64,000 nt of DNA from Acidobacteriota bacterium (lineage in GTDB: Bacteria; Acidobacteriota; Terriglobia; Terriglobales; Acidobacteriaceae). A program made the translations under genes and the position numbers. The stretch is from the NCBI GenBank assembly GCA_013285705.1, contig JABDHA010000003.1, positions 1 through 64,000 on the forward strand, written 5' to 3'. Under the pieces are notes generated by a model. That model saw only the letters and a list, made by a program, of their open reading frames with translations. It was not told the origin of the DNA and did not search any database. Below, one piece after another: positions 6,254 to 37,698 of the stretch (its first letter is position 1; the number at the start of each line of letters is the position of its first letter).

Positions 6254-6682
6254 TCAGACTCGATCCTGAATCAGATTGATCACGACGTCGATGTTGCCGC
6301 GTGTCGCCTTGGAATAGGGGCATGTCTGATGTGCTGCATCCACTAAGGCTTGGGCGATGTCACGATCGAGCCCCGGCAGGCTTACGTTGAGGCGAGCTTG
6401 AAGGAGGAAAGCGCCGCCAGAAGTTCCAAGGTCCACTTCGGCGTTGACCGCCCTGTCTGCCGGAAGAGCGACCTTCATTTTGTTAGCCGCAATCCCCATT
6501 GCGCCGAGGAAACATGCCGACCAACCTGCAGCGAATAGCTGCTCGGGGTTGGTGCCGGTGCCGGCGTGGCCGGGAGGTGACAGCGTGATATCCAAACGAC
6601 TGTCGTCACTTCGGGCCGCGCCGTCGCGGCCTCCAGTAGTGCGAACCTTTGCAGTGTAAAGAACCTTTTCGAGCTTCGTCAT
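6254..6682 (-). CDS. ohr: organic hydroperoxide resistance protein (Ohr/OsmC family)
   Basis: Thiol peroxidase reducing organic hydroperoxides in the cytoplasm. ATG 6682 follows AAGGGGG. The 142-residue length is typical of Ohr. Both redox cysteines are present: the peroxidatic Cys in GWSACFLGAM (about residue 57) and the resolving Cys in HQTCPYSKATRGN (about residue 120). The N-terminal KVLYTAKVRTTGGRDG and the NPEQLFAAG turn are Ohr hallmarks that separate it from OsmC proper. It is followed directly by a coupled 85-residue ORF. No adjacent MarR-type OhrR regulator is seen, so control is not evident here. Confidence 0.93.
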   Translation of the reverse strand: MTKLEKVLYTAKVRTTGGRDGAARSDDSRLDITLSPPGHAGTGTNPEQLFAAGWSACFLGAMGIAANKMKVALPADRAVNAEVDLGTSGGAFLLQARLNVSLPGLDRDIAQALVDAAHQTCPYSKATRGNIDVVINLIQDRV

Positions 6683-6779
6683 CGGGAACGCCCCCTTTTC
6701 AAAAAGATGAATTTACGTTCACTGTCGCAACTCTTCCATCAAGAGCAGTATTGCGACGCTTCATGAGCACTGATCTTTA

Positions 6780-7322
6780 TTAGTTCTTCTCGCCTGGAGG
6801 GAAGTGTTCGAACAGCTTATCCACAGCCGTGTCGAGATGTTTTATGTTCTTGTCGGATTTATCGGAGAGAGTGTCGCTCGCTGATCCGCGCCAGATGAGA
6901 GTCTTCGTCTTCGAGTCGAACAAATCCACGACCAGAGTTCCGACTCTATAAGTGGACGTTGTTGTCGTGGCATCTCCGAAGCCTCCCCCTCCCCATCCTC
7001 TCCAGCCCCAACCACCGCCGAAACCGTCGTAATAAGTATTGAGAGTCTGGTGAGTCTGGTTCATTTCCAGGGCCATGATGGACACGCTTCCGTCTGAACC
7101 AACCAGCGTCCAACCCTTCGCTGCCAGCGCCGAATTGACGGCCGACTTGATCCGATCAACCCATAACGGGTTTTCGGTGTGGACATTCTCCCAGGAGAAC
7201 GTCTTGTACTGATTGAAGTCCGCATTTCGATCGTAGTCAGTCTTCACCTGCTGTGCGAAAGATACTGCCGTGAAGAAAGACGCGATTGCGAGGAGGACGG
7301 AAAATCTGCGCCGTAAGCTCAT
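6780..7322 (-). CDS. DUF4136 envelope protein
   Basis: Exported protein of unknown function. I prefer ATG 7322 (MSLRRRFSVLL) over the track start at 7394: it has GGAG six bases upstream and begins a clean signal peptide (FSVLLAIASFFTAVSFA, cleavage near AQQ). The mature part shows the DUF4136 pattern: VKTDYDRNADFNQYKTFSW at the start, a central Gly/Trp-rich loop (GFGGGWGWRGWGGGGFG), then VGTLVVDLFDSKTKTLIWRGSA and a C-terminal helix ending LFEHFPPG. The final FPP motif is common in this family. There is no lipobox Cys, so it is probably periplasmic rather than lipid-anchored. Monocistronic by position. Confidence 0.85.
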   Translation of the reverse strand: MSLRRRFSVLLAIASFFTAVSFAQQVKTDYDRNADFNQYKTFSWENVHTENPLWVDRIKSAVNSALAAKGWTLVGSDGSVSIMALEMNQTHQTLNTYYDGFGGGWGWRGWGGGGFGDATTTTSTYRVGTLVVDLFDSKTKTLIWRGSASDTLSDKSDKNIKHLDTAVDKLFEHFPPGEKN

Positions 7323-8277
7323 AGAGGCTCCTTGTGCGGTGTGAATGTTGGTAATGGCAACCTTTGTCAACGTCACTGGACTCAGGGTGGTCATTGGAGA
7401 ATCGTCGATCTCACATTCAACAGCTGCAAACGTTATGCCAATCAGCCATGGGACGGCGATACGAGCAGAGGGCCATTGAATTGAAATAGTTAGCTATCAC
7501 TCTGGAGTCAGAGCACTAACTGCGTGGCCTCCGAAAGTGTTGTTGAGCCGTCTCGATGTCGGTGCAGCGACACGCGCTCCTCGGCCTCCATGGGTTGTTG
7601 GAAGCGACAGGGAGACGATTCGAGAAGCCCCAACAACATGAGTGCAGTACCCTGACGGAGCCGCCAACCAACTCCGCATCCATGTAGAACAGGGAAGAGT
7701 TCAGCGCTAGCTGCCAGATGCCGCTGTTGTATCAGCTATCTGAATGAGTCGGTCTCAATGTACGCCGTCTTTGACGGGACCTTAGCAGTTTCACTTGCGA
7801 TGTTGCTCCTCTTCGGCAAAGGGGAGCCCTGGGTCCTGTCCGCGACTAGAAGGGGCTGTGAATTGCATACATGGGGTCATCATGAGCGTCTCGCTCGGGA
7901 AGCTAACAGATTCATGCGTACAGTCGATATGGCAACCCGAGCGTCAGTCCATGGACTCACCGTTCTGCCGTCATTGCGCAGATCGTGAAAGGAAAAAGGG
8001 CTGAGTAAGTTCCGCGCGATTATCAGGTCGTCGATTTCTCATTACCAACAAACCCCTACCTTCGTGCACGGACTGCACTCAGGGATCTTGCCGGGAAACT
8101 GAAATGAGAGCGTTTGGCAAATGCCACTGGCGGACGACTCCGCAGTGGTAAGCGTAATTCATCATTGAGAGGATTCGATCGAGTTTCGAGAGGATCCTCG
8201 CACATCAATAACACCAATTGCGCACTCGGCTAGGTTGCAACCTGAGAGTCCGGCTGTTCGAGATAGCTGTAGCGGCC
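7323..8277. other. gene-poor region, nothing supported
   Basis: About 950 bases between the DUF4136 gene and the sigma-54 activator. The short ORFs listed here (for example 7497-7679 and 7758-7988) lack ribosome sites, have Arg/Ser-rich low-complexity translations and match no family I know. I see no repeat, tRNA or clear terminator. It may be decayed coding sequence. Confidence 0.4.
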
Positions 8278-20037: not shown

Positions 20038-21048
20038 TTAGAGTTGGGCGAGGAAGGTGAGCAGGTCGGGATTGTCCCGCCAGCGTTTCCTTCCGGATGG
20101 ACGCTTCTGTTCGCACATGCCGAGCGCTTTCGCTTTCATGTCGAGGTCCGTCTCGGCATAGATATTGGTTGTGTCGAGCGAGACGTGCCCCAGCCATGCA
20201 CGGATGGTGTTGATATCCACTCCGGCTCGGAGCAGGTGCGTTGCCGTTGTGTGACGGATGGTGTGCGGGCCGATCTTCTTCTTGTGCATTTCGGGCACGG
20301 AGGTCGCTGCAGTTCGTGCATGGCGAGTGACGATGTCATGGATGCCGAAGCGCGTCAGCGGTTGTCCCTTGCGGTTGAGGAACACAGGATCTTTGTCTTC
20401 ACGTCCACGCGTCATCTCACGCAGTGCGTGTGCGGTCGCCGCCCACAGCGGGCAGAGGCGGACCTTATTTCCTTTGCCCTTCAGACGCACCGAAGATAGA
20501 GTGCTCGTTCCATCGCTGCGCAGAGTTAGATCGCCTATCTCCAGTTGCGCCGCTTCATCCGCACGCGCGCCGGAGTTGTAGAGGAACAACAGCAAGACAT
20601 GGTCTCTGTACCCGATCCGTGTTGATTGGTCGGGAACAGCCAGCAACACATCGATCTCATGTTTGTCCAGATAGCCGACGGGGACACGGGTCGATCGCTT
20701 GAACTCCACCGAACGAAGCTGCGCCGACCAGCCGAGATTGTCCGGGCTGCGTTGGCCGATGAACCCAGCCAGCGCATGGATGGCCGCCAAGCGTTGATTG
20801 CGCGTGGAGATCGTGCAGTCACGCTCCTCTTCAAGATGCCGCAGGAAGGCCCGAACCGTGTCAGCATCGAGGTCGACCACAAGAAGCTTGTCAGCCTTCT
20901 TGTGCAACAGATTGGCTGCGAACACGATCATCAGACGCAACGCATCCCGGTAGCTCTGCTGCGTATTGCGCGAGAGGTTGCGGTCGTCGGGCAGATGCTC
21001 CATCAGGAAGCGCCTAACCCAAGAACCGAGAGTATGTTTATCGCTCAT
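20038..21048 (-). CDS. ritC: tyrosine recombinase, third gene of the RIT trio
   Basis: Site-specific tyrosine recombinase of 336 residues from ATG 21048 (MSDKHTLGSWVRRF), chosen because GGAGGTGG lies just upstream; the track start at 21066 is six codons longer. N-terminal SAM-like core-binding domain (residues about 10-100), then the catalytic domain. Catalytic set seen: Arg I in NSGARADEAAQL, Lys in RLKGKGNKVRL, HxxR in PHTIRHTTATHLL, His and Tyr in WLGHVSLDTTNIYAE. The start overlaps the ritB stop by 11 bp. Similar enzymes act as phage-type integrases, but the trio context identifies this as RitC. Confidence 0.92.
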   Translation of the reverse strand: MSDKHTLGSWVRRFLMEHLPDDRNLSRNTQQSYRDALRLMIVFAANLLHKKADKLLVVDLDADTVRAFLRHLEEERDCTISTRNQRLAAIHALAGFIGQRSPDNLGWSAQLRSVEFKRSTRVPVGYLDKHEIDVLLAVPDQSTRIGYRDHVLLLFLYNSGARADEAAQLEIGDLTLRSDGTSTLSSVRLKGKGNKVRLCPLWAATAHALREMTRGREDKDPVFLNRKGQPLTRFGIHDIVTRHARTAATSVPEMHKKKIGPHTIRHTTATHLLRAGVDINTIRAWLGHVSLDTTNIYAETDLDMKAKALGMCEQKRPSGRKRWRDNPDLLTFLAQL

Positions 21049-21976
21049 CGCCACCTCCACATACATAGCGCTCGAAGCGGCGATTGGCCTCTCCCAGAAG
21101 CTCCGGCGTCATCGCCAGATAACGCTGCGTCGAGTGCAACTCGACATGCCCGAGATAGGTCGAGAGAGCAGGCAGCAGGGCTTGCACATCGGCGCCGCTG
21201 CGATACCACTCCGTGAGTCGATGCACCGCGAAGGTATGTCGCAGATCGTGGATGCGTGGTTGGTATGGACTGGCCTTTTCCCGGCGCACGCCCGCAAGGT
21301 TGCATAGCCGGCGGAAGCTGGCCTCAACCACCTGCCGTGGAACTGCCTTATGCAACCGGGATTGGAAGAGTGGCTGGTCGTTGCGGTCAAGCCTCCCCGG
21401 CATGGCAAGATAGACTTGTAACTGCGCCTGAACATCCGGTCCAAGCGGTACTAGACGCGATTTGTAGAACTTCGTTCCTCGGACCGTGATGACGCCAGCA
21501 CCAAGATCCACATCGCCACGAAGTAACCGCAACGTCTCGCCGATGCGCATCCCCGTGCCATAGAGCAGAAGCAGCAGCGTGCGGAACATGGATGCCGACA
21601 TCAGACACGCATCTCTCTGCTGACTGTACAGAAGGGCAGAGAGCAACAGCCGCAACTCAGAGACAGTGTAGATATAGGGAACGAAGCTGGTTGTGTATTT
21701 CGGGGCTGGTGGCGGTAGAGGAACCGTGTGCAACTCCTCTCGCAACCGCCAGTGCTCGAAAAAGACCCGCAACGTGCCATACTTGTTCCGCCATGTTGCA
21801 GGGCCAGTGCGTGCCCCTGCCAGGAAGTGCGACATCTGATCAGGCGTAAGTGAGGCGAGTTCGAGTTCACCATAACTACGGGACAAGGCGCGAAGCACTC
21901 TGGCCGGACTGTAGTACTTCTCGCCTGTAGCCTGACGCTTTGCGATGTAGAGGGTGATTGATTCGGCTAGCTTCAT
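21038..21976 (-). CDS. ritB: tyrosine recombinase, second gene of the RIT trio
   Basis: From ATG 21976 (MKLAESITLYIAKRQATG), which overlaps the ritA stop as ATGA; the longer track start at 22126 lies inside ritA. 312 residues. Core-binding domain with SPARVLRALSRSYGE and WRNKYGTLRVFFEHW, then catalytic residues: Arg in GTGMRIGETLRLL, Lys in VRGTKFYKSRLVPL, HxxR in RIHDLRHTFAVHRL, His and Tyr in YLGHVELHSTQRYLAM. All five are present. It would act with RitA and RitC on the terminal repeats; how the three divide the work is not known to me. Confidence 0.92.
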   Translation of the reverse strand: MKLAESITLYIAKRQATGEKYYSPARVLRALSRSYGELELASLTPDQMSHFLAGARTGPATWRNKYGTLRVFFEHWRLREELHTVPLPPPAPKYTTSFVPYIYTVSELRLLLSALLYSQQRDACLMSASMFRTLLLLLYGTGMRIGETLRLLRGDVDLGAGVITVRGTKFYKSRLVPLGPDVQAQLQVYLAMPGRLDRNDQPLFQSRLHKAVPRQVVEASFRRLCNLAGVRREKASPYQPRIHDLRHTFAVHRLTEWYRSGADVQALLPALSTYLGHVELHSTQRYLAMTPELLGEANRRFERYVCGGGDER

Positions 21977-23247
21977 AGCAGCCCTCCGAGGTCGAAGTCC
22001 GCTACGCGACGCAACATCGAGATATCGACCTTTGCATAGATACCCGTAGACATCGCGCTTCGATGTCCAAGGAGATCGCCGATTTCTTTCAACGACACGC
22101 CCTCCTGCAACAGGTGCGTCGCGCAAGCATGTCGCAGGCAGTGCGGCCCGCTTCGCCGGCAGCTTATACCCACCGCTTTGAGCTGTCGGTTAGTCATCGC
22201 CCACAAGCTCGTAGCAGCGACACTTCGGTAAGGGATATGCAGCGTCACGAACAGATGACGGCATTCGGTGCGCGGACGTGCCTTGGTGATGTATTGCAGG
22301 ATCGCTTCGCCCACCTCGTGCTGTAGCGGGTACGGCTGCCTTCCGCCGCGCTTGGAGTGCGTGACCAGGAACGTCTCGGCTGACCAGTCGAAGTCGCTCA
22401 GCAGTAAACGCGACACCTCGCCGCTACGCAGCCCATAGATCGCGAACAAGAGCAGAACCGCCCTGGCACGGAGCGCTGATGGACTGTCCCCTCCGATGCC
22501 GTGCAGCAACCGCTGTACCTCTTCCCACGTTGGCCCATCTGGCAGTCCTTCGTGAACATACCTCCGAGGCCCTTGGATCGCTCCCGCTATACCTGCCTTG
22601 CACCACCCACGCCGCTCGGCATGACGGAAGAAGGCGCGCAGTGCCTGTGCAGCCACTGATACGGATGTCCGGTTCCAACTGTCCGTCCCTTTCAGCGTCA
22701 GGAACTCATCTACATCCTGAAGCCGCACACGCGACAGGCAAGTATGCCGCGCGGTGAACCACGTCAGGAACGTCGAGGCCTTCCAGCAGTGCGACCGCAC
22801 CGACAGCGGCGATAGTCCCTGCTCTTCCATCATCCGTCGCGCGAAGTCATCCAGATGATCCGTGAACCATGCGCGTGGTTTGGACCGGGTCTCAAGCCTG
22901 CCTGCGAAGCGTAACCACTTCTTTGCCACGTATTCGAAGTAGCTCTCCGTCCGAACATAGGTGCGAGCCCGCGCGTTCGTTCGCTGCCGTTCGCCCCAAC
23001 GCCGCGAAGCCTGCTTGATCTCATCGACCGTGACATCGCGCAGTGCCTCCAACTTCAGCAAATCGATGACGTGCAACAGCTGCCCAGACACATTCCGTAG
23101 CGCTGCGCGGCTTGTTCCTCGCTCCTGCAAATAGTTCAGGAAAGCCAACCGCTCTTCCAGCAACGGGGCGTCACGGTGACGGTTGAGTGCAAATGGAAGT
23201 TCCAAAAGCGTATCCAGCATGATCGGGTCTCCTTGATCCCGGCTCAT
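21973..23247 (-). CDS. ritA: tyrosine recombinase, first gene of the RIT trio
   Basis: Largest of the three, 424 residues. ATG 23247 has GAGGGG upstream; ATG 23220 with AAGGAG is an equally possible start. The N-terminal region is longer than in RitB/C (about 240 residues, two SAM-like segments: ASRRWGERQRTNARARTYV, and LSPLSVRSHCWKASTFL). Catalytic residues: Arg in IYGLRSGEVSRL, Lys in VTHSKRGGRQPYPL, HxxR in PHCLRHACATHLL, His and Tyr in DLLGHRSAMSTGIYAK. Its first codons lie about 70 bases from the right inverted repeat, so its promoter must be within the element end, probably overlapping recombinase-binding repeats and allowing self-regulation. Confidence 0.92.
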   Translation of the reverse strand: MSRDQGDPIMLDTLLELPFALNRHRDAPLLEERLAFLNYLQERGTSRAALRNVSGQLLHVIDLLKLEALRDVTVDEIKQASRRWGERQRTNARARTYVRTESYFEYVAKKWLRFAGRLETRSKPRAWFTDHLDDFARRMMEEQGLSPLSVRSHCWKASTFLTWFTARHTCLSRVRLQDVDEFLTLKGTDSWNRTSVSVAAQALRAFFRHAERRGWCKAGIAGAIQGPRRYVHEGLPDGPTWEEVQRLLHGIGGDSPSALRARAVLLLFAIYGLRSGEVSRLLLSDFDWSAETFLVTHSKRGGRQPYPLQHEVGEAILQYITKARPRTECRHLFVTLHIPYRSVAATSLWAMTNRQLKAVGISCRRSGPHCLRHACATHLLQEGVSLKEIGDLLGHRSAMSTGIYAKVDISMLRRVADFDLGGLL

Positions 23248-26214: not shown

Positions 26215-26715
26215 ATGCTTCAAATGGTCTGCCTTCACCTAAAAGTGAAGGAAACGCCTGCCTCCTCCCGATCCCGTAAACTCGATCACGAAGGTGTGGT
26301 CGGTAACTCGCGCAATCCAGAACAGGTCGCACTCGCCTATACAGTCGATAGCCGCTGGCGAAATAAAGCTGAGTTCGTGAACGGGAGAGAAGCGATCGTC
26401 GCTTTTCTCAAGAGGAAATGGAGCCGCGAGCTCGACAATCGTCTGATCAAGGAGTTGTGGGCCTTAGACGGAAATCGAATCAGCGTACGTTTCGCTCACG
26501 AGTGGCATGACGACGCCGGCCAATGGTATCGCTCTTATGGAAATGAGAACTGGGAGTACAACGAGCAAGGCATCATGCTTCACCGCCACGCTTCCATCAA
26601 CGATTTACCGATCAAGGAAGAGGAGCGACCTTATCATTGGCCTCTTGGTCGATGCCCTGACGACTATCCGGGACTCTCGAAGCTCGGCCTCCAGCGACCA
26701 GGCTATTTCTTTTGA
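26215..26715 (+). CDS. DUF1348 NTF2-like protein, N-terminus uncertain
   Basis: Small alpha+beta-barrel (SnoaL/NTF2-like) protein; function not established. From about residue 37 it follows the DUF1348 consensus: [78 protein letters not shown] and [19 protein letters not shown]. The first ~36 residues do not resemble the family and no ribosome site supports ATG 26215, so the 5' end may be damaged. The 3' end extends eight codons past the usual stop and overlaps the convergent AraC gene by 13 bp. The last 20 codons also occur as a remnant at 33039-33101. Confidence 0.7.
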
Positions 26716-28006
26716 TCTCGTCGCCACGCCGCGGGTGTGGTCCCGCGTGCTCTTCGGAATGTTTTGGTCAGATGGCTCTGATCGGCAAACCCGACCTGAA
26801 CCGCGATCTCCGAGACTGGAATGTCTGTGGACGCTAACAAATGTTCGGCAGCTTCAACGCGGCGCCGCAAAGCCCATGAGTATGGCGGTACACCCGTGGA
26901 AATCCGGAATGCGCGCGCGAAACGCGATTGTGAGAGATGCGTAAGGTTCGCTAATTCTGCAAGGCTGATGTCCTGTCGGAAGTATTCCTCAATGTAGGAC
27001 TTTGCAAGCCTCAGTTGCCACGGCACGAGACCGCTTTCGTTCGAAGCCGCCTCCCGACTCAGTTCCTTGTGAGTCGCTGCAAGAAAGGCAGCTACAAGGC
27101 TGTTCCCGTAGAGTTTGTCCTCCGCACCTGCCAGGCATGCGTTTGCAAGCAAGCTGGCACAGGTCGCGATTCGGCTGTCGTGACGCGGGTCGCTCGGGCG
27201 GTTGATCCGCCCGAAATCGAGATCGTTGCCGAGAATCCGCTCCAGCTGCTCAACATCAAACTGAACTTCGAGATACCTTAGGGCTCGCACCTTCTCAACC
27301 CAGCTAAAGTAGGTGACGTTGGGCGGAATCCAGAAAAAGAATCCCGGTCGCTGACTAGCCATAGGAAGGGGTTTTTGGGGATCGCGCCTTGGGCTCAGTT
27401 TGCCTCCGACGTGTCCCAGTACTGCAACCACTTTGAAGGAATTGCACGAGAGATCCAGGGCGGAGATCTCTGCCGTCGGAAGACAGTGGTTGTAGCGAAT
27501 GCTGGCTCCGTTCCACTTACGATTGAGCATGTAATACTCCCGATCGCCAATCCACTCATGGCTGGTATCGATGTTTTTCGGAATTCGTGAGATCAAGCTC
27601 ATATCGCCTCCTTATCCCATCTGCCCTAACTCTGCTCTCGAAGCTGCCGAACGGCAGGTCGCGATTCTCGATCGGATCCGGAGAAACGGCCACGTGCTAG
27701 CCAACGAACTTGCGATCGAATTCGAGACCTCGGAGGACACGATTCGACGTGCGCTTCGCGAACTGGCCGAACGAGGGCTCTGCAAACGTGTCTATGGTGG
27801 TGCTTTAGCGAAGTGCCAGCCTCTGAAGCAATCGTGGTGCGAAATGCAGAGAATATAGATCGGAAAGCCGCATTAGGTGGCGCACTGGCTGAATTAGTGA
27901 CAAAACGGCAATTTGTGTTCATCGATGGCGGCACTAAGAATCTGGCTGCCGCCCGCATGATCCCTAAAAACTTTGACCTGACCGTGACAACACAAGACCC
28001 TGCCAT
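26635..28006. repeat. segmental duplication, copy A (DUF1348 tail, AraC, broken DeoR)
   Basis: Collinear with 33042-34555. Shared from the CATTGGCCTCTTGGTCGA codons of DUF1348, through the whole AraC gene, into DeoR as far as ACACAAGACCCTGCCAT. Copy A lacks about 145 bp of the AraC-DeoR spacer, including the DeoR start. Confidence 0.88.
26703..27602 (-). CDS. AraC-family transcriptional regulator (copy A)
   Basis: 299 residues; ATG 27602 has AAGGAGG seven bases upstream. The N-terminal half is a cupin-like ligand region ([38 protein letters not shown]), and the C-terminal ~100 residues hold two HTHs ([27 protein letters not shown] and [34 protein letters not shown]). It differs from copy B (33110-34009) at scattered positions, with the DNA-binding part nearly unchanged. 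Its 3' end overlaps the DUF1348 ORF tail. The divergent DeoR gene next to it is broken and its own upstream region is shortened, so its regulation probably differs from copy B. Confidence 0.9.
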
Positions 28007-31012: not shown

Positions 31013-31282
31013 CCTACAAACTCCATTACTCAAGTATCCGCCAAAGAACTCGCCTCGAAGAAGATTCGAAGAAATGCCGTCAACCTTGGCGCTGTTCACA
31101 CGGAAGGTTTCGAGTCGGCTGGCTTCAAAGACAGTCCATTCGAGGCGCATATTGTCCAGAACACACCGTTGGGTCGTCTTGGCACGCCCAAGGACATCGC
31201 TGACCTGGTTACGTACCTCGCATCGGAGAACTCCGGCTGGATTACCGGCTCATTGATCGATGCAGCCGGCGGCTGGAGATAG
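31013..31282 (+). pseudogene. C-terminal remnant of a short-chain dehydrogenase/reductase
   Basis: A plus-strand frame missing from the ORF track because it has no start reads AKELASKKIRRNAVNLGAVH, TEGFESAGFKDSPFEAHI, NTPLGRLGTPKDIADLVTYL and SGWITGSLIDAAGGWR before TAG at 31280. This is the last ~85 residues of a classical SDR (the N-x-V-x-P-G loop, here NAVNLG, and the W-ITG-x-x-x-D-GG end). The Rossmann glycine motif and YxxxK are absent and an in-frame TAG occurs at 31010. Non-functional stump. Confidence 0.85.
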
Positions 31283-31645
31283 TTTGGCCCGGCGCTCGCG
31301 AGGAAGAGTCGGACTCTGGCGATATGCCCGGTTTATTTGGCACAGAGCAATTCATTTTTCGTAACGATTGCCATAGGCGTGACATATTGAGACGGCACGA
31401 TCGTTCCAAAACAGTGGATTCGACAAGACCACCTCTCCCTCTGGAGCGTAGCCTCTTTAGCTATAAGCCTTCTGCCGCGTCTCGCGTTATCGACCTATAT
31501 TCTGGCGGCTTGCGAATTACGTCCAGGACATCAAGGGCTTGACGCTCCATTGTGGACGGAGAGATGTATGGGACGGCGAGCAGTGGTTAGGTGCGCATCT
31601 CCTCATCCGTTCACCGGGCGAAACATACAAGGATTTAAGCCAGAC
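31283..31645. other. intergenic region, nothing supported
   Basis: About 360 bases between the SDR stump and the GNAT gene. The plus-strand ORF 31324-31542 is Arg/Ser-rich without a ribosome site. It may contain the promoter of the GNAT-ribH pair. Confidence 0.4.
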
Positions 31646-32086
31646 ATGACAACCGCTAATTCAATGACAGGATTTCGTGTCGAAAGTAATCCACCTGAAG
31701 TCGATCTCGTTGGTGTAAGCAATCTCCTTGAGATTGTGGGTATGAGAGCGCGATCGATCGACGCGATGGCGCAAGCTATCAAAGCTTCTACCGAGGTGGT
31801 CGTTGTGCATGACGATAGAAAGATGCTCGTAGGATTCGGTCGCCTTGTTAGCGACGGGATGTATTACGGTACGTTGTGGGATATCGCAGTCCATCCAAAC
31901 GTTCAGAAGCGCGGAGTCGGCAAAGCGATTGTCAGTCGATTGCTGGCCAAGTGCAGGAGCCTTGAGTTAACGATGGTGGGACTTTTCACAGCGTTACACA
32001 ATCGGCAGTTTTACGAGAGTTCGGGTTTCGCGATGCTTGATTATATTCATGCTATGACACTCGATTTAAAGCAATCTGAACATTGA
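31646..32086 (+). CDS. GNAT-family acetyltransferase upstream of ribH-like gene
   Basis: 146 residues from ATG 31646 (MTTANSMTGFRVES). The track start at 31550 adds 32 residues with no homology. GNAT core: VVVVHDDRKMLVGFGRLVSD (beta 2-3), LWDIAVHPNVQKRGVGKAIV (motif A, with QKRGVGKA as the CoA pyrophosphate loop), MVGLFTALHNRQFYESSGF (motif B). Substrate cannot be inferred. The stop is 14 bases from the ribH-like ATG and the ribosome site of that gene overlaps this stop, so the two are very probably one transcript. The region is visibly richer in A/T-ending codons than neighbouring genes. Confidence 0.82.
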   Translation: MTTANSMTGFRVESNPPEVDLVGVSNLLEIVGMRARSIDAMAQAIKASTEVVVVHDDRKMLVGFGRLVSDGMYYGTLWDIAVHPNVQKRGVGKAIVSRLLAKCRSLELTMVGLFTALHNRQFYESSGFAMLDYIHAMTLDLKQSEH

Positions 32087-32100
32087 GAGAGGAAAAAGAT

Positions 32101-32529
32101 ATGGATCGAGATTTGCTCGGCATAGTAGTCACGGAGTTTAATTCGGATATAAGCGAGGCAATGTTAACAGCAGCTCTGAATGAGGCGACGAGTTTAGGTG
32201 CCGAAATAGTGTCAGTTTCTCATGTACCCGGCGCGTATGAGATTCCTTTAATAACTGAAGAACTATTAAAAAACGAAGATATTACTTCTGTCGTAGCTCT
32301 TGGGTTTATTGAAAAGGGAGAAACGCAGCACGGTGAAGTGATGGCTCATACGGTTAGTACTTCGATATTAAACTCCTCTGTGAAACACGGAAAGGCCATT
32401 GGTTATGGACTCATTGGACCAGGTGCTTCATTGGAACAGGCCAATCACCGTAAGGAGCCTTACGCTAGGGCAGCCGTTCGGGCTGCAGTTGCATCTACCA
32501 GCGTGCTTCGGGATATTCGAAAAAGATGA
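32101..32529 (+). CDS. ribH: 6,7-dimethyl-8-ribityllumazine synthase, archaeal-type
   Basis: Lumazine synthase homologue of 142 residues, the penultimate riboflavin step. The track begins at a TTG; ATG 32101 with GAGAGAGG upstream is better. Key features: the N-terminal substrate strand VVTEFNSDIS with conserved Phe-Asn, the VPGAYEIP loop, and FIEKGETQHGEVMAH carrying the catalytic His. The C-terminal part YGLIGPGASLEQANHRKEPY ARAAVRAAV follows the archaeal pattern (GPG..RLQA..R..Y..RAVEAA) rather than the bacterial LT..N..QA. No ribA/B/D/E gene is nearby. Codons such as TTA, ATA and AAT are frequent, unlike flanking genes, suggesting transfer. Paired with a GNAT gene. Confidence 0.8.
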   Translation: MDRDLLGIVVTEFNSDISEAMLTAALNEATSLGAEIVSVSHVPGAYEIPLITEELLKNEDITSVVALGFIEKGETQHGEVMAHTVSTSILNSSVKHGKAIGYGLIGPGASLEQANHRKEPYARAAVRAAVASTSVLRDIRKR

Positions 32530-32898
32530 AAGACGGAGGATAGCTGGGTTTCCTCTTAGTGCTTTGTGAATAAACAATGGTTACAAGCGGAAGAAGTTAT
32601 TGGGCACAGGCAACGAGACGGTTTGCTCTTCGCGGATTCTACCTGAGCGAGATGGTTAACGATCGTCCAAACGTTTGTGCTCAGGGATTAGAATGGCGGC
32701 CGAGATGACCGCGACCGACTGTGTGGAAAGATGAAACAAACTCAACTACTGTGACATATATTTGTAAATCTCCCCTGAGTTCCACTCATACTACTCCGCG
32801 AAGCTTCCACGTTGAGACAACCCGTCGACCCCATTCCATCCGTCGATCTCTTACGAGGGTTTGCCATGATCTGCGTATTTGAGCCCCGCGCGCAATCC
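32530..32898. other. intergenic region, nothing supported
   Basis: About 370 bases after ribH without a supported gene or clear terminator. It leads into small gene remnants at 32899 and 33039. Confidence 0.35.
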
Positions 32899-32985: not shown

Positions 32986-33038
32986 GCCGGCTCAACGAGA
33001 ACCAGTAGAGCGAGCAGTATTAAGCTAGAGGAGGGCTG

Positions 33039-33101
33039 TACCATTGGCCTCTTGGTCGAAGTCCTGACGACCATCCGGGACTTTTCGAATTCGGCCTCTA
33101 G
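33039..33101 (+). pseudogene. 3' scrap of a DUF1348 gene (copy B)
   Basis: Reads HWPLGRSPDDHPGLFEFGL then TAG, matching the last 20 codons of the DUF1348 gene at 26215-26715. The rest of the gene is absent, so the duplication boundary, or a later deletion, falls at about 33040. This copy keeps the canonical family stop, which copy A has lost. Confidence 0.82.
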
Positions 33102-34555
33102 CGATCAGCCTATCTCTTCTGATCTCGTCGCCACGCCGCGGGTGTCGTCCCCAATGCTCTTCGGAATGCCTTAGTCAGATGGCTCTGATCGGCAAACCCG
33201 ACTTGGACCGCGATCTCCGAGAGTGCGATGTTTGTGGACGCTAACAGATCTTCGGCGGCTTCAACTCGACGTCGCAGAGCCCATGAGTACGGCGGTATAC
33301 CGGTGGAAATCCGGAATCCACGCGCGAAACGCGATTGTGAAAGATGCGTGAGGTTTGCCAGTTCTGCAAGGCTGATGTCCCGTCGGAAGTATTCCTCAAT
33401 GTAGGACTTTGCAAGCCTCAGTTGCCACGGCACGAGACCGCTTTCGTTCGAAGCCGCCTCCCGACTCAGCTCCTTGTGCGTCGCTGCAAGAAAGGCAACT
33501 ACAAGGCTGTCCCCGTAGAGTTTGTCCTCCGCACCTGCCAGGCATGCGTTTGCAAGCAAGCTGGCACAGGTCGTGATTCGGTTGTCGTGACGTGGGTCGC
33601 TCGGGCGGTTGATCCGCCCGAAATCGAGATCGTCGCCGAGAATCCGCTCCAATTGCTCAAGATCAAATTGCACCTCGAGATACCTTAGGGCTCGAACCTT
33701 CTCAGCCCAGCTCCAATAGGTCACGTTGGGCGGAATCCAGAAAAAGAATCCCGGTCGCTGAGTCGCCATAGGAAGGGGTGTTTTAGGATCGAGCCTTGGG
33801 CTAAGTTTGCCTCCGACGCGTCCTAGTAATGTAACCACTTTGAAGGAATTGCAGGAGAGATCCAGGCAGGAGAGCTCTGACGTTGGAATACAGTGGTTGT
33901 AGCGGATGCTGACTCCGTTCCACGTACGATTGAGCATGTAATACTCCCGATCTCCGATCAGCTCATGGCTGGTATCGATGTTCTTCGGAATTCGTGAGAT
34001 CAAGCTCATATCGCCTACTTATCCCATCCGCCCTAACTCTGCCCCCAAAGATCAGTTTCCCAACCGCGTGTGGTGTCGCTGTACAGATAAACCTTCGACG
34101 ATTCTTATCATCCATTATTGCACGTTTATGCCTGTTGATGCATGATTATGTCTGGAGTAAAGTTCAAATATGGCTCAAATGGATCTCATGGCTGCCGAAC
34201 GGCAGGTCGCCATACTCGATCGTGTCCGCAGAAACGGCCGCGTCTTAGCCAGCGAACTGGCGATCGAATTCGAGACTTCGGAGGACACGATTCGGCGCGC
34301 TCTTCGCGAACTCGCCGATCAAGGGCTATGCAAACGTGTCTATGGTGGTGCTTTAGCGATATCGCCAGCTTCTGAAGCAATCGCTGTGCGAAATGCAGAA
34401 CATATGGATCGGAAAGCCGCATTAGGTGCCGCACTGGCCGACTTAGTGACAAAAGGGCAATTTGTATTCATTGATGGCGGCACTACGAATCTGGCTGCCG
34501 CCCGCATGATCCCTAGAAATTTTGCACTGACCGTGGCGACACAAGACCCTGCCAT
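33042..34555. repeat. segmental duplication, copy B (DUF1348 scrap, AraC, intact DeoR)
   Basis: Collinear partner of 26635-28006. Retains the full AraC-DeoR divergent spacer of about 160 bp and the complete DeoR gene beyond the shared part. Confidence 0.88.
33110..34009 (-). CDS. AraC-family transcriptional regulator (copy B)
   Basis: 299 residues, same architecture as copy A: N-terminal ligand region ([20 protein letters not shown]) and C-terminal tandem HTH ([40 protein letters not shown]). The upstream sequence matches copy A except that the ribosome site AAGGAGG has become AAGTAGG, which should weaken translation. It is divergent from an intact DeoR regulator with a 160-bp shared spacer, so cross-regulation of the pair is likely. 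No enzyme or transporter operon adjoins the pair, so its targets are elsewhere or lost. Confidence 0.9.
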   Translation of the reverse strand: MSLISRIPKNIDTSHELIGDREYYMLNRTWNGVSIRYNHCIPTSELSCLDLSCNSFKVVTLLGRVGGKLSPRLDPKTPLPMATQRPGFFFWIPPNVTYWSWAEKVRALRYLEVQFDLEQLERILGDDLDFGRINRPSDPRHDNRITTCASLLANACLAGAEDKLYGDSLVVAFLAATHKELSREAASNESGLVPWQLRLAKSYIEEYFRRDISLAELANLTHLSQSRFARGFRISTGIPPYSWALRRRVEAAEDLLASTNIALSEIAVQVGFADQSHLTKAFRRALGTTPAAWRRDQKR

Positions 34556-35186: not shown

Positions 35187-36266
35187 ATGAGCAAGGCGGG
35201 AACAAACCTTGAACTCGCAAACAGTATCCAGCAGGATCCACGGTGGCAATCTGTGATCGATCGTGACTCCAAGGCCGACGGTAAGTTCTTCTACTCGGTC
35301 AGAACAACTCGAGTGTACTGTCGCCCTTCATGCGGAGCTCGCCTTGCTCGTCCCGAAAACGTGCAGTATCACCTGACGTGCGAAGACGCTGAAAAAGCCG
35401 GATTTCGAGCATGCAAACGCTGCAAGCCAGATCAAATGAGTTTGGCTGCAGAAAACTCAGTCAAGATCGCGAGGGCATGTCGGTTGATCGAGCGGTCCGA
35501 ACAGGTGCTGACTCTAAAGCAACTGGCGAAACAAGCCGAGATGAGCCCGTTTCATTTCCACAGAACCTTTAAGTCAATAACCGGACTCACACCCGCCGCC
35601 TATGCGAAGGCGCATCGCAATCAACGGGTACGAGCCTCATTAGAAAGGAGCAACTCCGTGACTGACGCGATCTATGATGCCGGCTTCAATTCGAGCGGGC
35701 GTTTTTACGAAAATACAAACCAAGTTCTCGGTATGACGCCGACTAAATTTCGTGAAGGCGGAGGCGACACGGACATCTTTTTTGCGATCGGCAAAGTCTC
35801 GCTGGGCTCGATTCTGGTCGCCCAAAGTAACAAAGGCGTTTGCTCGATCTTGATTGGCGAGGACCCTGAGGTCCTGATACGCGATCTTCAGGACCGGTTC
35901 CCCAAAGCGAATCTGATCGGAGACGAAGCTGGATACCAGGAGCTGGTCGCAAAGGTGGTTGGACTGATCGAGCAACCTGGAATCAGCCTCGATCTTCCGT
36001 TGGACATTCGTGGCACCGCCTTTCAGCAGCGGGTCTGGAAAGCACTACAACAGATTCCCCCGGGCACGACTGCGACCTATACCGAAATTGCGAAGAAAAT
36101 CGGTATGCCCAAGGCCGTCAGGGCAGTTGCACAAGCTTGTGGAGCAAATGCGCTTGCAGTGGCAATCCCATGTCACCGAGTGATTAAGAACGATGGTTCT
36201 CTCTCCGGCTACCGCTGGGGAGTCGATCGTAAGCGTGCGCTTCTTGAAAGAGAGGCGCGCGCATGA
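35187..36266 (+). CDS. ada: Ada: methylphosphotriester/O6-methylguanine methyltransferase and activator
   Basis: Adaptive-response protein of 359 residues. Domain 1 (1-90) binds zinc and accepts methyl from phosphotriesters: FFYSVRTTRVYCRPSCGARL with FRACKRCKPD, four Cys. Domain 2 (about 95-185) is an AraC-type HTH: LKQLAKQAEMSPFHFHRTFK and SVTDAIYDAGFNSSGRFYE. Domain 3 (about 195-355) is the O6-methylguanine transferase, with YTEIAKKIGMPKAVRAVAQA and active site AVAIPCHRVIKNDG. All methyl-acceptor Cys are kept. First gene of an operon: its stop overlaps the next start as ATGA, and the two following genes are also alkylation-repair type. Autoactivation by methylated Ada is the known control. 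Confidence 0.96.
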   Translation: MSKAGTNLELANSIQQDPRWQSVIDRDSKADGKFFYSVRTTRVYCRPSCGARLARPENVQYHLTCEDAEKAGFRACKRCKPDQMSLAAENSVKIARACRLIERSEQVLTLKQLAKQAEMSPFHFHRTFKSITGLTPAAYAKAHRNQRVRASLERSNSVTDAIYDAGFNSSGRFYENTNQVLGMTPTKFREGGGDTDIFFAIGKVSLGSILVAQSNKGVCSILIGEDPEVLIRDLQDRFPKANLIGDEAGYQELVAKVVGLIEQPGISLDLPLDIRGTAFQQRVWKALQQIPPGTTATYTEIAKKIGMPKAVRAVAQACGANALAVAIPCHRVIKNDGSLSGYRWGVDRKRALLEREARA

Positions 36267-37036
36267 ACACCCTATTTGCTGAGAGAGCAGACTCTGTGCG
36301 GGAGACAGTCGGTCAATCATCTGAAGCATCGAGAGCTGTGGCTCGGATCGAATCGTTGAACTGGCCGCAGATCACGAATGAGTTAAATGATCAGGGGAGT
36401 TCCTTGTTGAAAAATGTGCTCACAGCTGAGGAGTGCGTCAGTCTGTCGCACCTATATCCAAATGAAGACGGATTCCGTAGCCGCGTCGTGATGGGACGGC
36501 ATGGATTTGGTCGCGGAGAATATAAATACTTCAGCTATCCACTGCCCGGAATTATTCAGGGGATGCGGACGGCGCTATATCATGAACTCACCCCGATTGC
36601 GAATCATTGGAACAAGAGCATGGGGATTGAAGTTCAGTATCCGAAGGAACACGCCGAATTCATTCAACGCTGTCACGACGCCGGTCAATCAAGGCCTACT
36701 CCACTCCTGTTGCAATACGGAACTGGAGACTACAACTGCCTGCATCAGGATCTCTATGGTGAGCACGTATTCCCGATACAAGTCGCGTTCCTGCTCTCCG
36801 AGCCGGGGCAAGATTTTGACGGTGGAGAGTTCGTATTGACGGAGCAGAGACCGAGAATGCAGTCGCGGCCCGAAATCGTTCCTTTACGCCAAGGCGACGC
36901 AGTCGCATTCGCGGTTCATCATCGTCCGGTTCAGGGCACTCGAGGTACCTATCGCGTCAATCTCCGCCACGGAGTAAGCAGGCTGCGATCAGGACATAGA
37001 TACACGGTAGGCGTGATTTTTCACGACGCGAGCTAG
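36263..37036 (+). CDS. 2OG-Fe(II) oxygenase of the alkylation-repair operon
   Basis: Dioxygenase-fold protein of 257 residues translated by ATGA overlap from ada. The double-stranded beta-helix residues are HQDLYGEHVFPIQVAFLLSE (His-x-Asp of the iron triad), FDGGEFVLTEQRPRMQS, and a distal His in AFAVHHRPVQGTRGTYRVN with the 2OG-binding Arg following. The short PLRQGDAVAF strand is typical. Members of this group occur beside ada and alkB in many bacteria but their substrate is not well defined; it is distinct from AlkB itself, which is the next gene. The first ~40 residues are probably disordered. Confidence 0.88.
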   Translation: MNTLFAERADSVRETVGQSSEASRAVARIESLNWPQITNELNDQGSSLLKNVLTAEECVSLSHLYPNEDGFRSRVVMGRHGFGRGEYKYFSYPLPGIIQGMRTALYHELTPIANHWNKSMGIEVQYPKEHAEFIQRCHDAGQSRPTPLLLQYGTGDYNCLHQDLYGEHVFPIQVAFLLSEPGQDFDGGEFVLTEQRPRMQSRPEIVPLRQGDAVAFAVHHRPVQGTRGTYRVNLRHGVSRLRSGHRYTVGVIFHDAS

Positions 37037-37047
37037 GAGGATGCGCG

Positions 37048-37698
37048 ATGTCGACACTCTTTGATTCAATTCCCGGGCGGGGACTGCCTCACGATCTCCT
37101 CGGCCCGGGCACCGCCATCTTGAACGGCTTTGCACTTGGGCGCGAGACTGAATTGGCATTTATGATCCAAGCCATTAGTAAACTTGCGCCTTTTCGGCAC
37201 ATGATCACACCCGGTGGCTTTCGTATGTCTGTGGCGCTGACAAACTGCGGAAGATACGGTTGGGTCACCGATCGGACGGGATATCGTTACGACAGCATCG
37301 ATCCCGAAACAGAACAGCATTGGCCGGGAATGCCTGATAACTTTCTCGAATTGGCCAGAGCTGCTGCATCGACGGCTGGCTTCCCGTCATTCATTCCTGA
37401 TGCCTGTCTCATTAATCGTTACGAGCCTGGGTCGCGGCTCACGCTTCATCAGGACAAGAACGAACGAGATTTCACACAGCCCATCGTTTCGGTCTCTCTC
37501 GGGTTGCCGGCAACTTTCCTCTTCGGAGGTATGGAACGCTCCGATAAGACCGTCCGAGTCCCACTACATCACGGCGACGTCCTCGTCTGGGGAGGTCCGG
37601 CTCGGTTACGCTACCACGGGATCAACCCTCTGAAAGAGGGAGTGCATCCGACGTTTGGAGGCTACCGCTACAACCTAACTTTCAGGGCTGCGGGATAG
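37048..37698 (+). CDS. alkB: AlkB DNA/RNA demethylase
   Basis: 2OG- and Fe(II)-dependent dioxygenase reversing 1-methyladenine and 3-methylcytosine. ATG 37048 follows AGGAGG with a 5-6 base spacer. 216 residues, the normal length. Seen: the substrate lid MSVALTNCGRYGWVTDRTGY, NRYEPGSRLTLHQDKNERD (iron ligands His and Asp in HQD), the distal ligand His in LRYHGINPLKEG and the 2OG-binding Arg in YRYNLTFR. It lies 11 bp after the oxygenase gene, third in the ada operon, so induced with Ada. High confidence. Confidence 0.96.
   Translation: MSTLFDSIPGRGLPHDLLGPGTAILNGFALGRETELAFMIQAISKLAPFRHMITPGGFRMSVALTNCGRYGWVTDRTGYRYDSIDPETEQHWPGMPDNFLELARAAASTAGFPSFIPDACLINRYEPGSRLTLHQDKNERDFTQPIVSVSLGLPATFLFGGMERSDKTVRVPLHHGDVLVWGGPARLRYHGINPLKEGVHPTFGGYRYNLTFRAAG

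Follow-up and report, generated by a model that had tools for sequence, protein, structure and literature searches.

An archaeal-like lumazine synthase gene paired with an acetyltransferase gene in a putative transferred unit of Acidobacteriaceae

The window analysed here, a stretch of 64,000 nucleotides from a soil bacterium of the Acidobacteriota (Acidobacteriaceae; contig JABDHA010000003.1), carries a gene for a lumazine synthase-like protein (RibH) directly behind a gene for a GNAT-family N-acetyltransferase, and the question is where such a pair comes from and what it is for. An earlier note on this DNA took the protein for an archaeal-type RibH and the two genes for a transferred unit, which might modify a lumazine or deazaflavin-like product, or form a repurposed RibH shell. 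It withstood the two tests that it had set in advance, namely whether the GNAT neighbour recurs in another genome and whether RibH falls outside the RibH of Acidobacteriota. A lumazine synthase and a GNAT are both quite ordinary proteins; what is unusual is an archaeal-like RibH lineage in bacteria and its union with a GNAT gene in one mobile unit. We consider it rather probable that the window RibH works as a lumazine synthase and belongs to a transferred unit, since a member of its clade is the sole RibH found in a Gemmataceae genome that also bears riboflavin synthase.

The gene pair and the active site

The GNAT gene (146 aa, positions 31646-32086 of the plus strand, ATG at 31646, stop codon at 32084-32086) and the RibH-like gene (142 aa, 32101-32529, same strand, ATG at 32101, stop codon at 32527-32529) are separated by 14 bp, the gap that had been noted before. 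The sequence GAGAGGA at 32087-32093 on the plus strand, 7 nt before the ATG of the RibH-like gene, reads as its ribosome-binding site, and AAGGA at 31629-31633, also plus strand, is a possible one for the GNAT gene; the latter is kept in Granulicella sp. dw_53, the second genome with the pair, which has an equivalent of the former as well. The genes are adjacent and probably co-translated. No consensus promoter or terminator was found at 31250-32750. That the RibH-like gene sits away from riboflavin genes was borne out by its surroundings, as none occurs among ten Pfam-tested neighbours (24-40 kb), and no FMN riboswitch was found at 24-38 kb of the window or in seven related loci. Its A/T-ending codons set it apart as claimed: the GC content at third positions (GC3) is 37% in RibH and 50% in GNAT, whereas the five neighbours that were measured lie at 55-65%. 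A role of the pair in anti-phage defence was considered and dropped, as PADLOC gave no match.

Profile searches place both proteins in their families. The GNAT scores 45.8 bits with PF13508 (cut-off 27), and RibH scores 102.1 bits with PF00885 (DMRL_synthase, cut-off 26.7) and 89.6 bits with the lumazine synthase profile TIGR00114 (cut-off 84.6), the dw_53 copy falling just below the latter at 80.7. The motifs GETQH, GPGASLEQA and ARAAVRAAV can all be found, and the His of GETQH aligns with H88 of Bacillus RibH. Equivalents of F22, N23, E58, T86, H88 and R127 are kept in the alignment, so that the aligned columns hold both the catalytic His (H88) and the phosphate-site Arg (R127). The canonical phosphate-site lysine K135 has no counterpart, its loop being absent; the archaeal sequences also lack it, and its loss therefore appears to separate subtypes of RibH and does not exclude the protein from the lumazine synthase family.

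Recurrence and probable mobility of the unit

A scan of GTDB genomes for relatives of the RibH led to the same pair at a non-homologous site in Granulicella sp. dw_53. The proteins are 74% (RibH) and 73% (GNAT) identical to those of the window, and the dw_53 GNAT gene lies 12 bp upstream of its RibH gene, so that order, strand and spacing are kept. What the two genomes share is a unit of 958 bp (window 31616-32573, plus strand; dw_53 L032:4520-5471), 78% identical in DNA by blastn, which consists of both genes together with about 30 bp on the 5' side and 44 bp on the 3' side. It is the sole blastn match between the whole 64-kb window and the 10.4-kb dw_53 locus. A genome search with a 16-kb region recovered the same match independently, again without shared immediate flanks. 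The stretch at the 3' edge (32530-32573, plus strand) can fold in dw_53 into a hairpin of marked stability (-23.3 kcal/mol, z = -5.1), and its window counterpart is degenerate (z = -0.4). At this edge of the dw_53 unit, at L032:5425-5455, lies a near-perfect palindrome, AAGAGACGGAGATATCTCCGTCTCTT, degenerate in the window.

Between the two copies dN/dS is about 0.24 for GNAT and 0.14 for RibH, which points to purifying selection on both genes. The dw_53 unit is AT-rich too, with a GC3 of 46% in GNAT and 40% in RibH against 55-60% in two upstream genes. Elsewhere among 100 relatives a similar GNAT did not turn up at E <= 1e-10, nor did a similar RibH at E <= 1e-20 elsewhere among 300 genomes of the family. 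As only the 958-bp unit is shared and not its flanks, and as it is under purifying selection and AT-richer than its neighbours, the pair behaves like a cassette, and these patterns fit a co-transferred one with defined edges. The earlier idea of a transferred two-gene unit is thus well supported. Carriage by phages or viruses was rejected, as scans of viral contigs with the query and with the alignment gave no relative; the phage matches are weak, at most 38% identical, and unannotated.

Several features of the surroundings deserve mention in their own right. The GNAT-RibH region is flanked, at 26619-28006 and 33027-34555, by a direct repeat of an AraC-type plus a DeoR-type regulator, its copies being 89-91% identical and the DeoR frame broken in the first. 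Three consecutive ORFs resembling tyrosine recombinases lie on the minus strand at 20038-23247; by eye, and from the translations only, they recall the integrase trios of the Tn554 type. Just upstream of the unit, at 31139-31283, there is a C-terminal fragment of a short-chain dehydrogenase (LGTPKDIADLVTYLASENSGWITGS), apparently a remnant. An Ada-type methyltransferase, an Oxygenase-NA protein and an AlkB-like 2OG oxygenase stand in a row at 35187-37698 and make up a DNA alkylation repair cluster, part of which has a match in dw_53 as well, about 79 kb from the GNAT-RibH unit there and on one contig with it.

An archaeal-like lineage and its probable function

The RibH phylogeny comprised 59 sequences, only two of them archaeal: one fetched, and a second whose sequence is presumed accurate. 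A search of viral contigs and plasmids for archaeal RibH gave one plasmid sequence, from Natronosalvus. The window RibH and its sparse bacterial relatives form one clade (support 96/85), which is joined to the two archaeal sequences by a 100/99 branch that excludes canonical bacterial RibH; when the second archaeal sequence is left out, the split from canonical RibH still has a support of 99. A place within the RibH of Acidobacteriota was rejected by the tree and by the AU test, where holding the window pair together with two canonical Acidobacteriota RibH (L004 and dw_53's own) cost 75 log-likelihood units (p = 0.00015). A constraint uniting only the window pair and the two archaeal sequences was not rejected (p = 0.27), which is compatible with direct descent from an archaeal donor.

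The label "archaeal-type" is supported in part: the relationship to the archaeal sequences stands, but in the tree the protein falls within a bacterial clade next to them, and the archaeal side consists of only two sequences. The likeness that had been seen in the second half of the protein is there; it is not confined to that half, as the N-terminal part alone separates the clade and the archaeal sequences from canonical RibH with a support of 97 (84 with the fetched sequence only). With archaeal RibH the window protein shares a GPG motif in place of the canonical T-x-E, the loss of the GTKAGNK loop, and an active-site His motif of like shape together with the Arg, whereas it differs in belonging to the separate bacterial clade and in being only 33% identical to the fetched archaeal RibH. 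Type II RibH2 (PRK12419) was also considered and rejected, since the window protein scores 33 bits with NF009084 (cut-off 160) and the Pantoea/Agrobacterium type branches elsewhere in the tree. Among 396 genomes sampled from the phylum, the high-scoring matches that were read, a subset, were all canonical RibH.

Relatives with about 40-44% identity were found in a Myxococcales MAG, a Gemmataceae MAG (L034), a Burkholderia stagnalis plasmid and Azospirillum plasmids, and profile and family searches added the genomes G884 and G1366 and an apparent algal contig. Most genomes related to the Gemmataceae MAG give a strong match at the level of canonical RibH; G102 and G1366 give only the archaeal-like type, which in the latter (Gemmataceae, a single 6.59-Mb contig) was read directly as GETLHGEVM...GIIGPGATEEQA. 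G884 and G101 also have the archaeal-like type only. In all four of these genomes (G1366, G102, G884 and G101) the clade member is the only PF00885 match, and the riboflavin synthase domain PF00677 is found in 4 of 4. As the clade member is the sole RibH found in these genomes with riboflavin synthase, lumazine for riboflavin is most likely what the lineage makes. The RibH of G1366 and L034 share the clade and the motifs GET-HGEVM and GIIGPGA with the window protein (42% identity for L034), but differ in being the sole RibH found in their genomes and in having no GNAT partner.

Two other functions for the protein have to be set against this one. RibH may condense another carbonyl partner into a special lumazine or a deazaflavin-like product, for which the lost K135/GTKAGNK loop, the changed F113 position and the absence of riboflavin genes and FMN riboswitches nearby could be cited; a like loop change is however seen in archaeal RibH and in the clade members that are the sole RibH beside riboflavin synthase, and we regard this as quite unlikely. 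A repurposed RibH shell or nanocompartment without a catalytic role seems far more improbable still, since nothing speaks for it other than that some lumazine synthases form capsids, and the catalytic residues are kept under purifying selection in a unit with no cargo gene. For neither proposal of the earlier note was any positive evidence found; active-site residues are kept, relatives in the clade are the only RibH found in genomes with riboflavin synthase, and the window RibH is most likely not a repurposed shell.

Since dw_53 also has a canonical RibH, the archaeal-like one is accessory there; the window's assembly yielded no canonical RibH and no riboflavin synthase, but at about 59% completeness it is uninformative on this point. 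The case of dw_53 resembles that of the accessory lumazine synthases of Mycobacterium smegmatis (RibH2) and of the Agrobacterium/Pantoea type, where a second RibH exists beside the canonical one, although the window RibH is not of the PRK12419 type and the M. smegmatis likeness is one by description rather than by sequence comparison. M. smegmatis RibH2 is a second functional lumazine synthase (PMC12240317).

Of the other members of the clade, the Burkholderia stagnalis and Azospirillum plasmids (L035 and L036) carry RibH that are about 60-65% identical to each other and adjoin non-riboflavin genes (PEP mutase, a PAS-domain protein). The contig L078, from a genome of the Myxococcota search, looks eukaryotic (algal), and its archaeal-like RibH (6616-7500, minus strand) is interrupted by a GT-AG intron and begins with a basic N-terminal extension of low complexity, which suggests that the contig is contamination and that it holds an algal lumazine synthase of the archaeal-like type.

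The acetyltransferase partner and what the pair may mean

The closest known arrangement is that of RibH and RibT in Bacillus subtilis, where a GNAT gene also adjoins the lumazine synthase gene. There ribH comes before ribT; in the window the GNAT gene comes first, and the pair has neither a rib operon nor an FMN riboswitch. The B. subtilis RibT sequence used for comparison matches 5xxr in the PDB from end to end. The window GNAT is not recognisably RibT: homology was rejected, with only the acetyl-CoA motif in common (20 bits over 20 residues), and RibT is absent from its PDB matches even at E <= 5. Counted from the aligned F22/N23, with residues 22-29 of B. subtilis RibH as presumed here, the position of K29 is Ala20 in both copies. 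This lysine is the one that RibT acetylates in B. subtilis RibH, and RibT reportedly shifts capsid assembly (PMC9048828); the known target is thus replaced by alanine here. The window and dw_53 RibH have three lysines in common, K72, K98 and K118, of which K118 adjoins Arg117, the phosphate-binding residue. These lysines also occur in relatives without the GNAT, and for that reason they are candidate acetylation sites and not evidence of acetylation.

The nearest solved structure to the window GNAT is the chloroplast serotonin N-acetyltransferase 1 (E = 3e-10), followed by other GNATs. The GNAT might accordingly act on an unrelated arylalkylamine, amino acid or toxic amine while RibH works as a lumazine synthase, the genes having merely travelled together, and we give this a real though minor chance. 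None of the other clade members examined has a GNAT beside it (a GNAT gene 4 kb from the clade RibH in Azospirillum was rejected as a counterpart, being unrelated), which means that the archaeal-like RibH type does not require one; moreover, the two known pairs are close relatives, and joint transfer alone could explain the linkage. Against this, both genes and their spacing are kept under purifying selection at two unrelated sites, in a unit without a third gene. The same structural match, together with the fact that RibH uses an aromatic amine as its substrate and that the genes are adjacent and probably co-translated, could also mean that the target of the GNAT is a small molecule from the pathway, for instance 5-amino-6-ribitylaminouracil with its amino group, and that the pair serves to remove a reactive riboflavin intermediate or to turn it to another use. 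We find this unlikely; the substrate specificity of a GNAT is unreadable from sequence at such a distance, and we know of no enzyme that acetylates a riboflavin intermediate in this way.

In the reading that we prefer for RibH, a small GNAT-ribH unit would have moved horizontally and provided its host with a lumazine synthase of the archaeal-like lineage, as an addition or as a replacement. This enzyme would condense 5-amino-6-ribitylaminouracil and 3,4-dihydroxy-2-butanone 4-phosphate to 6,7-dimethyl-8-ribityllumazine, which may feed the riboflavin synthase of the host. More tentatively, the GNAT might serve RibH as RibT does in Bacillus, by acetylating one or more lysines and so tuning its activity or assembly; drawn by analogy, this is possible, though we would not expect it. 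That the unit as a whole is a mobile, regulated-enzyme cassette, in which a transferred archaeal-like RibH brings its own dedicated acetyltransferase, arisen independently of Bacillus RibT, is a little more doubtful still.

The archaeal-like RibH lineage is scattered over Acidobacteriota, Planctomycetota, Myxococcota, Azospirillum, Burkholderia and an apparent algal contig, and some of these genomes gave no other lumazine synthase. Our literature searches on archaeal-type or paralogous lumazine synthases in bacteria gave no description of such a clade. Acetylation control of lumazine synthase has, to our knowledge, been put forward for RibT only. A GNAT adjoining a lumazine synthase so far from Bacillus offers a second, independent case in which such control can be tested, and through this unit one can ask by experiment whether it evolved more than once.
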